The position numbers were made by a program, and so were the translations under genes. Of a stretch of DNA of 64,000 bases, positions 56,596 to 59,667 are shown piece after piece. How positions within the stretch are numbered: the first letter of the stretch is position 1; every line of letters starts with the position of its first letter. Origin of the DNA: an uncultured Pelagibacteraceae bacterium (lineage in GTDB: Bacteria > Pseudomonadota > Alphaproteobacteria > Pelagibacterales > Pelagibacteraceae). The DNA lies in NCBI GenBank assembly GCA_902576045.1, contig CACGTU010000001.1:1-64000 (forward strand), read 5' to 3'. Under the pieces are notes generated by a model. The model saw only the letters and a list, made by a program, of their open reading frames with translations. It was not told the origin of the DNA and ran no database searches.

Positions 56596-56712
56596 TATCT
56601 TTATTATATTCTTAATTGAAATTCCCGATTTTAGATTGAATTATTAACATTTTTCAACTGTGGGGTTTAAATTTGCCTTATTTTGGTGGTTATAATTTAT
56701 CATAAAATGTAC

Positions 56713-57015
56713 ATGAAAATAAAATTTATTTTAATCTCTGTGTTATCTCTAATTCTCCTATCTGGTTGTCAAACAATCAAAAATAAATCTGATGAAGTTG
56801 CAGAAAAAGAGAATGAGAAATATGGACAATTCGTAGGCAAACAAGTTAGTGAATTAAAAATGGAACTTGGAGCACCTACAGAGGATTTTGTTAATGAACT
56901 TGGGAATGAAACTTTAGTTTATAAAACTAAAAAATATGGTTTACCTTGTGACAGAAAATTCGAGATTAATTCTTCAGGTACAATTATAGGATTTAATTCA
57001 AGCGGTTGTTTTTAA
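56713..57015 (+). CDS. Small lipoprotein of unknown function
   Basis: About 100 residues with a lipoprotein signal (KIKFILISVLSLILLSGC, lipobox LLSGC) and a SmpA/BamE-like core: YGQFVGKQVSELKMELGAPTEDF and ETLVYKTKKYGLPCDRKFEINSSGTIIGFNSSGC. Two C-terminal cysteines flank the last strand and may form a disulfide. The ORF-track start is TTG; ATG 56713 (or 56707) is preferred. BamE relationship is weak; treat as unknown. Confidence 0.75.
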   Translation: MKIKFILISVLSLILLSGCQTIKNKSDEVAEKENEKYGQFVGKQVSELKMELGAPTEDFVNELGNETLVYKTKKYGLPCDRKFEINSSGTIIGFNSSGCF

Positions 57016-57049: not shown

Positions 57050-57496
57050 TTATTTGATTTCAATAAGTTTTCTTTTTTTATGCTCTGGTATTATTCTTTC
57101 ACAAGCAATAGTTAAAAGACCATCTTTTAGTTGAGCGCCATTTACTTTTACATCATCAGCAATTGTAAAAGATCTTGCAAAATGTCTTTGGGATATGCCT
57201 TTGTGAATTATTTCACCATCATCGTTTTTATTTTCTGACTTATCAACTTGTTTTGTTCTAACAGTTAATAAATTATCTTCAAATTCAACTTCAACATCAT
57301 TTTTACTGAAGCCAGCAAGCGCAACCTCTATAGAGTATTTGTCTTGTCCAGTTCTTCTGATGTTGTATGGCGGATAGTTTGATTGCATGCTCAAACCTCC
57401 ATTTCCAAGCATATTTTCGAATTGGTCAAACATATCGTCGAAACCAATAGAAAACGGCCTTAATGAATTGAAGATAGATAGATCCTTACTTGTCAT
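57050..57496 (-). CDS. hsp20: Small heat shock protein (Hsp20/IbpA)
   Basis: ATP-independent holdase chaperone. Alpha-crystallin domain from about residue 45 (YPPYNIRRTGQDKYSIEVALAGFSKNDVEVEFEDNLLTVRTKQVDKSENKNDDGEIIHKGISQRHFARSFTI...) to LKDGLLTIACERIIPE, and a C-terminal I-x-I-like EIK ending. The ORF-track start at 57532 is unlikely: ATG 57496 has AAGGAGG 5-6 bases upstream and gives 148 residues. Preceded by a ROSE-like leader and a sigma-32 promoter (separate entries). Confidence 0.94.
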   Translation of the reverse strand: MTSKDLSIFNSLRPFSIGFDDMFDQFENMLGNGGLSMQSNYPPYNIRRTGQDKYSIEVALAGFSKNDVEVEFEDNLLTVRTKQVDKSENKNDDGEIIHKGISQRHFARSFTIADDVKVNGAQLKDGLLTIACERIIPEHKKRKLIEIK

Positions 57497-57497
57497 A

Positions 57498-57550
57498 ATT
57501 TCCTCCTTTGTTAAGCAAGTATATTTTTGCAAGCCCCATTAGGCGACTTA
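57498..57550 (-). promoter_or_regulatory. ROSE-like RNA thermometer in the hsp20 leader
   Basis: The minus-strand leader ends CUUGCUU-AACA-AAGGAGG-AAAUUAUG. CUUGCUU (57513-57519) pairs with the Shine-Dalgarno AAGGAGG (57502-57508) over a 4-base loop, with a central G-G opposition and a U-G pair. This is the U(U/C)GCU anti-SD hallmark of ROSE elements that open on heating. A second hairpin AAGUCGC-CUAAU-GGGGCUU (57531-57549) lies upstream, also with an internal G-G. The leader begins at the predicted transcription start. Confidence 0.75.
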
Positions 57551-57557
57551 CAAATTA

Positions 57558-57586
57558 TATATAGGAATGAAGTTTATTTTTTCAAG
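57558..57586 (-). promoter_or_regulatory. Sigma-32 promoter of hsp20
   Basis: Minus strand CTTGAAA (57580-57586), 14 bases, CCTATATA (57558-57565). The -35 is a perfect heat-shock element; the -10 is a good match to CCCCATNTA. Initiation about 7 bases downstream falls at 57551, where the ROSE-like hairpins start. The -35 is a few bases from the end of the upstream ptrB gene. Confidence 0.7.
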
Positions 57587-57591
57587 ATTGA

Positions 57592-59667
57592 TTAAATTTT
57601 ATCAGTAATTTTTAATATAAAAGAATAATCTAGTGCAATTTCTTCAATAGCACCATCTCTTCCAGACTTACCACCGTGCCCAGCATTCATTTCAGTTTTT
57701 AATAGTAGTAAATTATTGTCTGTTTTGTGTTCTCTAAGTTTTGCAGTAAATTTTGCAGGTTCATCGAACAGAACTCTGTTATCACTTAAACTTGTAGTAA
57801 TTAATATATCCGGATAATCCATTTTTTTTATATTGTTATAAGGTGCATAAGAATAAATATAATCGAAATGTTCCTTGTTTTCTTTAGCATTTCCAAATTC
57901 ATCAAATTCTCCTACAGTAAGAGGAAGTGAATGATCTAAATTAGTTGTTAATGAGTCTACAAATGGAACAGCCATAATTATACCTTTAAATAATTCTGGA
58001 TTTTTATTAACAACTGCCCCCATTAATAAACCACCTGCAGAACCACCCATTCCAATTATTTTTCCCTTAGATGTATATTTTTTTTCAATAAGAAATTTTG
58101 CAACTGCAATATAATCCTCAAAAGTATTTTTTTTATTAAGAAGTTTTCCCTCCTTCCACCATTTCATTCCTTTTTCCATTCCCCCTCTTATATGTGCAGT
58201 GACCCATATTATATCTCGATTAATTAAGCTTAATCGCGTTGAAGAAAAGTTGGGTGTCATTGAACTTCCATAGGACCCATAGCCATACAATAGTAAATTA
58301 GCTGAGCCATCGACTGGTGTATTTTTATGCCTAGTTATTGTTAATGGAATTAATCTATTGTCATGTGAAGAACACTCAAGTCGTTCCACTATGTAATCAT
58401 CTGAATTGTGACCAGAGGGAATTTCCTGTTCTTTTAATAATTTTCTCTCTTTAGTCTTAAGATTATACAGATAAGTTCTTCCGGGTGTCTTTGGTGACGA
58501 ATATGATAAGTGAACCTCGTCAGTATTCTTATCTTTTTGGGCTAAAGAGATACCAGGTACAATAACTTTTTCGTCAGAAAAAACAATCTCCTCTTCTTCG
58601 TTAGTTTTGGGGTCTCTAAGAATAAGTTTACTCAATGCATTTGAGGTTTCAGAACGTATAATCCAATTTTTCAAAAATACTAAACCACCAATTAAAACTT
58701 CATCTCTTGCTGGTATAAATACTTCCCAATTTTGATTTTCCAAGCTTCTTGCTCTCTCAATTTTAAAATCTTCAGCATCTTTATTGGTGTGTTTATAAAA
58801 ATTCTCATCCCAAGAATTTACGGAATAGATTATTCCTCTTTCCCTTTTTTGAATAAGTTTTGGTTTTGGTTCCTGCTCGTCCACTGCAAAATAATATTGT
58901 TCTGATGTATTATGATCAGAAGAGGTAATAAAAAAAAATTTTTCATCTGAACTAATACCTAACCCAACCGTGAATGCTTCACTTTTTTCCTCAAAAATAA
59001 GCTCATCATCTAAAACACTGCTACCCAATTTATGTCTGAATATTTTTCTTGGTCTATGATGTTCATCAAGTTTTGAATAAAAAATGTACTTATCATCTAA
59101 ACTGAAAGTGATGCTTCCACTTGTTTCCTGTATTTTTTCGGTGATTAATTTATTTGTTTCTATATCTCGTACATGAATTGTGTAATATTCAGATCCCTTC
59201 AAATCTAGAGAGTAAGCAAGATATTTATCATTAAAACTAACTTCCAAATCTCCTAAACCAAAATATTCAGTATTTAATTTTTCTTTTTCCTTATCGCCAT
59301 TCCAAATTTCCTCTACTTCATTGGTATTAATTTTTTTTCTTAATTTAATTGAATAATTCCCTTTTTCTGTTGTTTTGGTCCAATACTCATAACGAACATC
59401 TTTATAAGGCAACGATTGATCCTCTAATTTTATTCTTCCTTTGATTTCATCAAATATTTTTTTTTGACTATCTTTAGTATTTTTCATTTGATATTCAAAA
59501 TATGCATTTTCTTCCTCTAGATATTTTCTAACCTCAGGTAAAAGCTTTGAACTATCCTTGAGGACTTCTAAAATATTTTTTTGATGTATCCAGCTATAAT
59601 TATCTTCCCAAGAGACATCGTGACAAGATTTTACTTCTAGTTTTTTTCGTAATTGTGGTATTTTCAT
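57592..59667 (-). CDS. ptrB: Oligopeptidase B (S9A)
   Basis: Cytosolic serine oligopeptidase cleaving after basic residues in short peptides. An N-terminal seven-bladed propeller (HDVSWEDNYSWIHQKN start, SPDGKYLAYS-like blades) is followed by the alpha/beta hydrolase domain with nucleophile in GMGGSAGGLLMGAVVNK, Asp in TSLSDNRV and His in NAGHGGKSGR. 691 residues, the PtrB length. ATG 59667 is only 15 bases from the divergent J-domain ATG. Confidence 0.93.
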   Translation of the reverse strand: MKIPQLRKKLEVKSCHDVSWEDNYSWIHQKNILEVLKDSSKLLPEVRKYLEEENAYFEYQMKNTKDSQKKIFDEIKGRIKLEDQSLPYKDVRYEYWTKTTEKGNYSIKLRKKINTNEVEEIWNGDKEKEKLNTEYFGLGDLEVSFNDKYLAYSLDLKGSEYYTIHVRDIETNKLITEKIQETSGSITFSLDDKYIFYSKLDEHHRPRKIFRHKLGSSVLDDELIFEEKSEAFTVGLGISSDEKFFFITSSDHNTSEQYYFAVDEQEPKPKLIQKRERGIIYSVNSWDENFYKHTNKDAEDFKIERARSLENQNWEVFIPARDEVLIGGLVFLKNWIIRSETSNALSKLILRDPKTNEEEEIVFSDEKVIVPGISLAQKDKNTDEVHLSYSSPKTPGRTYLYNLKTKERKLLKEQEIPSGHNSDDYIVERLECSSHDNRLIPLTITRHKNTPVDGSANLLLYGYGSYGSSMTPNFSSTRLSLINRDIIWVTAHIRGGMEKGMKWWKEGKLLNKKNTFEDYIAVAKFLIEKKYTSKGKIIGMGGSAGGLLMGAVVNKNPELFKGIIMAVPFVDSLTTNLDHSLPLTVGEFDEFGNAKENKEHFDYIYSYAPYNNIKKMDYPDILITTSLSDNRVLFDEPAKFTAKLREHKTDNNLLLLKTEMNAGHGGKSGRDGAIEEIALDYSFILKITDKI

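Follow-up and report, generated by a model that had tools for sequence, protein, structure and literature searches.

Few groups of organisms in the sea are as numerous as the bacteria of the SAR11 clade, which have shed most of their transcription factors. Which control has been kept in front of their small heat-shock gene is the question raised by a locus in positions 1 to 64,000 of contig CACGTU010000001.1 (assembly GCA_902576045.1), from an uncultured Pelagibacteraceae bacterium; we refer to this whole stretch of 64,000 nt as the window. The initial annotation had proposed two layers of heat control for the hsp20 gene located there, a sigma-32 promoter and, in a very short leader, an RNA thermometer of the ROSE type.

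The hsp20 gene and its surroundings

The product of the gene matched PF00011 in the profile search (64.8 bits), and its score against the IbpA model was 102 bits, under the cut-off of 212. It is the only hsp20 copy found in the source genome (1.14 Mb, 83% complete), which also encodes RpoH (TIGR02392, 354 bits, cut-off 323). Just upstream and on the same strand lies a gene for a prolyl-oligopeptidase-type S9 peptidase (57592-59667, minus), whose stop is at most about 10 bases away from the -35 element of the hsp20 promoter. Convergent with hsp20, a small predicted lipoprotein-like protein of 110 aa is encoded at 56683-57015 (plus); it had no Pfam or NCBIfam match. The features of the hsp20 locus itself are collected in Table 1.

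Table 1. Features of the hsp20 locus, in window coordinates
Feature	Position	Strand	Basis or remark
-35 element CTTGAAA of the sigma-32-type promoter	57586-57580	minus	pattern match; conservation in 128 relatives
-10 element CCTATATA, after a 14-nt spacer	57565-57558	minus	pattern match; conservation
Predicted 5' leader, ~55 nt	57551-57497	minus	start position estimated from the promoter
Hairpin I (stable, 5'-proximal), UGUAAGUCGCCUAAUGGGGCUUGCA	57552-57528	minus	fold; 8/10 pairs changed on both sides
Hairpin II, CUUGCUU-AACA-AAGGAGG, presumed thermosensor	57519-57502	minus	fold; conservation; U(U/C)GCU motif
Anti-Shine-Dalgarno CUUGCUU (ROSE motif: UUGCU)	57519-57513	minus	
Shine-Dalgarno AAGGAGG	57508-57502	minus	sequence
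hsp20, IbpA-like small heat-shock protein, 148 aa	57496..57053	minus	ATG at 57496, stop at 57050-57052
AAGUAAG (codons 2-4), complement of the anti-Shine-Dalgarno	57485-57491	minus	synonymously invariant in relatives

A sigma-32-type promoter conserved among SAR11 relatives

The promoter postulated in the initial annotation, CTTGAAA-N14-CCTATATA, is present exactly where it had been placed. The window contains one match to the strict pattern, where 0.17 are expected by chance and 17 of 100 shuffled sequences have at least one; taken alone, a single strict match per window is weak evidence. Among 128 distinct SAR11 regions upstream of hsp20, the best match to CTTGAAA-N12/15-CCCATATA averages 13.4 of 15 bases vs 9.3 of 15 in shuffled upstream regions, and the spacer measures 14 nt in 123 of them. 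The -10 element of the source genome is CCTATATA, the majority form among the relatives CCCATATA. Reading by eye, we found CTTGAAA also before SAR11 groES, and CTTG(T/C)AG is common before dnaK, each of them preceding a CT/CCTATAT-like -10 element. The combination typical of a sigma-32 regulon member, a CTTGAAA-N13/15-CCCATNTA promoter together with RpoH in the same genome, is found at this locus. Because the element is conserved in relatives, rpoH is encoded and the groES and dnaK promoters look similar, a sigma-32 promoter before hsp20, with predicted dependence on RpoH, is well supported. By its geometry, transcription would start at about 57551, some 7 nt past the -10 element.

A recognisable SAR11 sigma-32 consensus with a (C)CTATAT-like -10 element was seen at groES-groEL of the source genome and at dnaK of relatives. 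Searching the whole genome with a degenerate sigma-32 pattern gave 9 matches vs 6 for the reversed control, so the regulon cannot be read from the pattern alone.

The predicted leader folds into two hairpins

The predicted fold of the leader consists of two hairpins and has an energy of -15.3 kcal/mol; its z-score is -2.68, and 6 of 200 shuffled sequences folded equally well. In agreement with the initial annotation, the second hairpin pairs CUUGCUU with the Shine-Dalgarno sequence AAGGAGG in the order C-G, U-G, U-A, G opposite G, C-G, U-A, U-A, the G-G opposition being formed by G57516 and G57505. The accompanying remark that a leader of about 55 bases is among the smallest for such an element holds in relation to ROSE elements (61-62 nt in Pseudomonas) but not to RNA thermometers generally; single-hairpin RNA thermometers exist.

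The structure is retained across SAR11, and its two halves differ in how this can be recognised. A covariance model built from 23 SAR11 leaders found the leader in 100 of 100 SAR11 hsp20 loci, among them the 23 used for the model. Within the source genome the hsp20 leader reached 84.9 bits and was the sole strong score, the next best being 18.0. In the alignment of the 23 leaders, which was made without structure, 95.1% of cells are paired under the two-hairpin model, and there are 13 double-changed cells vs 4.5 after shuffling, every slid control being far lower. When 93 distinct leaders were aligned to the model, the double-changed cells amounted to 68 vs 20 shuffled, and the covariation score was 0.228 vs 0.132, a value as high in none of 500 shuffles and above all slid controls; being fitted to the model, this larger alignment leans to the structure, and it agrees with the structure-blind one.

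The compensatory signal comes almost entirely from hairpin I, in which 8 of 10 pairs show double changes (for instance A-U/U-A/C-G/G-C at column pair 5-29). For hairpin II, 95.7% of cells are paired in the 93 distinct leaders with hardly any changes and with fixed Shine-Dalgarno letters; this hairpin is without covariation because one of its sides is the fixed Shine-Dalgarno sequence. Thus, stem conservation, on which the initial annotation depended, was found throughout the loci searched, whereas covariation speaks for hairpin I only; the pairing of hairpin II appears to be supported by conservation and motif.

Within the order Pelagibacterales the element varies. In 19 leaders the anti-Shine-Dalgarno is shifted by one base, CCUUGCUAAC in place of CUUGCUUAAC; these are predicted to form a sensor hairpin of 4 bp, CCUU/AAGG, and keep the UUGCU core. 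The predicted hairpin II of one genus (g4) is a weaker 4-bp form. In nine leaders from f2, a sister family within Pelagibacterales, UAAUCGCUUAAGGAGGAUUA adjoins the start and the fold gives longer leaders with multiple hairpins. Since the leaders of this sister family are longer and multi-hairpin, the short form seems particular to Pelagibacteraceae.

Probable assignment to the ROSE class

What marks ROSE elements is U(U/C)GCU in the 3' hairpin, where this motif pairs imperfectly with the Shine-Dalgarno sequence; they belong to small heat-shock genes (PMC3669281). Here a PF00011 hsp20 gene lies directly 3' of the leader, UUGCU within CUUGCUU covers AAGGAGG imperfectly in the 3'-proximal hairpin, and hairpin I provides a further stable upstream hairpin of conserved structure. 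The U(U/C)GCU motif is present in 122 of 122 distinct SAR11 leaders examined and in most hsp20 leaders at the level of the class.

The comparison with Rfam, named in the initial annotation as the check on a ROSE identity, came out divided. By E-value, ROSE_3 (RF02523) was the only family to match at the exact place, aligning with the leader end to end (57552-57491, minus; 24.1 bits, E 0.0082 in a search of 4227 families), while no Rfam family reached its gathering score at the leader, that of ROSE_3 being 43, and RF00435 had no match in the source genome at E up to 1. Formally, the leader therefore belongs to no Rfam family. For calibration, the proven ROSE of E. coli ibpA scored 100 bits on its own ROSE_2 model and 20.8 bits on ROSE_3; as this proven element also fails RF02523, we consider the missed gathering score a limit of the models. 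Several other alphaproteobacteria likewise have hsp20 leaders that stay under the cut-off of RF00435. With stricter filters, ROSE_3 gave weak and scattered matches across 197 genomes of the family (18.9 bits at most), and many control genomes matched too, which makes this search uninformative.

Searches in the other direction gave graded scores. The model made from SAR11 alone found other hsp20 leaders with 62 bits in a sister genus, 42 bits in another family (f122) and 23-29 bits in several further alphaproteobacterial families; it also matched five individual hsp20 leaders of other families at E 0.0001-0.004. At the hsp20 leader of genome G461, RF00435 and the SAR11 model mark the same place independently. 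These graded scores, together with the common target in G461, link the SAR11 element to the classical ROSE. E. coli ibpA was not matched by the SAR11 model.

Considering the ROSE_3 match, the motif, the compensatory changes in hairpin I, the graded alphaproteobacterial matches and an anatomy like that known from Pseudomonas, the suggestion of a ROSE-like leader stands: very probably, hsp20 is controlled by a short two-hairpin leader, a predicted RNA thermometer of the ROSE type, transcribed from a sigma-32 (RpoH) promoter.

Invariant codons at the start of hsp20

The constraint seems not to end at the start codon. Codons 2-4 of hsp20 (57485-57493), ACA AGT AAG, show zero synonymous change among 114 distinct SAR11 genes, with lysine at the last of them in 111. 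Relative synonymous diversity averages 0.74 over hsp20, and this start is the lowest four-codon window; AAG makes up 14% of the lysine codons in the window. The starts of dnaK (also Met-Ser-Lys) and groEL in 30 genomes each, and that of a neighbouring permease in 69 genes, are not frozen and have AAA for lysine. The invariance spans the stretch complementary to the anti-Shine-Dalgarno and relaxes at codon 5, where GAT and GAC vary. Together, this suggests that the RNA is under constraint within the reading frame, and the complementarity of codons 2-4 to the anti-Shine-Dalgarno implies that the element may include part of the coding sequence. In other alphaproteobacteria, complementarity of the anti-Shine-Dalgarno to early codons was not above shuffled sequences, so it is not a general feature of ROSE elements.

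When 30 nt of coding sequence were folded together with the leader, about half of the predicted anti-Shine-Dalgarno pairing went elsewhere, often to AAGUAAG. The leader might then be a switch with two states. In the closed one the anti-Shine-Dalgarno would pair with the Shine-Dalgarno; in the other it would pair with AAGUAAG(G), which lies in codons 2-5, and a large loop would hold both the Shine-Dalgarno and the AUG. With this stretch the anti-Shine-Dalgarno can form an uninterrupted run of seven pairs in either register (CUUGCUU or CCUUGCU), the predicted energies of the two states are almost the same, and the end of the invariance where complementarity ends would be explained. But the predicted energy difference is constant across temperatures, in genus g4 the prediction gives the alternative pairing a share of about 1%, in genus g5 and outside Pelagibacteraceae this pairing is absent, and with both partners fixed there is no compensatory change. 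In 2.5% of cases a synonymous redraw formed an equally good duplex, and the frozen stretch could have another reason, such as a Shine-Dalgarno-like AAGGA or a contact with protein. On balance we regard such a switch as rather unlikely.

A protein contact leads to a further explanation, in which the leader serves mainly as a binding site through which Hsp20 represses its own synthesis and temperature is sensed by aggregates that titrate the protein away. Self-repression via the 5' UTR has been shown for gammaproteobacterial IbpA and depends in E. coli on R93 together with Y34, R97 and K98 (PMC10474464). Of these residues, Y34, R93 and R97 have retained counterparts in the SAR11 protein, and invariant nucleotides in the loop and the codons, which pairing does not need, would fit such a contact; the counterpart of K98, however, is Ser in SAR11, and K98A abolished repression in E. 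coli (PMC10474464). Self-repression would moreover be compatible with thermosensing, as E. coli has both layers. As the main function of the leader we think it unlikely.

Proposed working and predicted behaviour with temperature

For the predicted RNA thermometer we propose the following course. Heat would raise RpoH activity and with it the transcription of hsp20. In the mRNA, hairpin I would remain folded and may stabilise the 5' end or the fold, whereas hairpin II would cover the Shine-Dalgarno at the normal temperature of the sea; upon warming it would loosen, exposing AAGGAGG so that ribosomes could start.

Nearest-neighbour folding gave -6.9 kcal/mol for hairpin II at 10 °C and -3.1 kcal/mol at 37 °C, and for the leader it predicted no clear opening of the Shine-Dalgarno between 5 and 42 °C. 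The same calculation predicts no opening for E. coli ibpA, the positive control, either; because this control fails too, temperature folding is no test in either direction.

The small thermal opening predicted in the temperature range of SAR11 would also fit a leader that merely sets a fixed low rate of translation and stabilises the mRNA, with the heat response coming from sigma-32 alone, and hairpins at the 5' terminus are known to be stabilising, as PMC3669281 discusses. Such a static role would leave unexplained that U(U/C)GCU and the imperfect pairing with the Shine-Dalgarno are retained across the class, and ROSE elements of like anatomy are proven thermosensors (PMC3669281); we judge it improbable. 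That an AT-rich leader resembles a promoter and two hairpins by chance, for which one could cite the 17% of shuffled windows with the promoter pattern and a degenerate pattern hardly above its reversed control genome-wide, is refuted by the conservation of the promoter, the presence of the leader in all loci searched and the compensatory changes, and we give it practically no credence.

Meaning for SAR11

With subscription papers and supplements outside its scope, our literature search found no report linking ROSE elements or RNA thermometers to SAR11 hsp20. A survey of structured RNAs in Pelagibacter makes no mention of heat-shock genes or thermometers (PMC2704228), and ibpA is mentioned elsewhere only downstream of manA RNAs (PMC2864571). 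New, and solid at sequence level, is a compact and widely conserved ROSE-type leader in SAR11, which belongs to a kind already known and was to be expected; it extends ROSE elements to the order Pelagibacterales. If shown, a two-layer heat response of hsp20 that was kept with a thermometer of such small size would tell which regulation is worth keeping, and the hsp20 response of SAR11 would be a direct readout for its response to ocean warming. The long leaders of the sister family and the short ones of Pelagibacteraceae form a natural series for the minimal size of a sensor, and the frozen start codons are a concrete and testable oddity.

Comparison with known systems

The SAR11 leader shares with the E. 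coli ibpA ROSE (RF01832, ROSE_2) the gene and presumably the function, the E. coli motif being UCGCU over AGGAG; unlike in SAR11, the E. coli leader is longer and has more hairpins. Common to the SAR11 leader and the classical ROSE (RF00435, Bradyrhizobium hspA) are the gene family, the U(U/C)GCU anti-Shine-Dalgarno and the target in G461, whereas the classical form has three or four hairpins and its model spans 94 positions. The alignment with ROSE_3 is full-length and includes both stems, with the Shine-Dalgarno and AUG in register; several pairs of that model are however not formed, the SAR11 sequence is shorter and its score lies under the gathering score.

On its predicted anatomy, the nearest match is the short ROSE of Pseudomonas ibpA, which consists of two hairpins in 61-62 nt behind a sigma-32 promoter, the first insensitive to temperature and the second melting (PMC3669281); this element exceeds the SAR11 leader by a few bases. 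Both have a stable 5' hairpin, U(U/C)GCU on the Shine-Dalgarno in the 3' hairpin, an unpaired AUG, a sigma-32 promoter, a gene of the same family and a similar length (PMC3669281). In contrast to the Pseudomonas element, that of SAR11 is AT-rich and has a hairpin I of its own (GCC-UAAU-GGG tip), and its frozen codons 2-4, complementary to the anti-Shine-Dalgarno, are a SAR11 feature.
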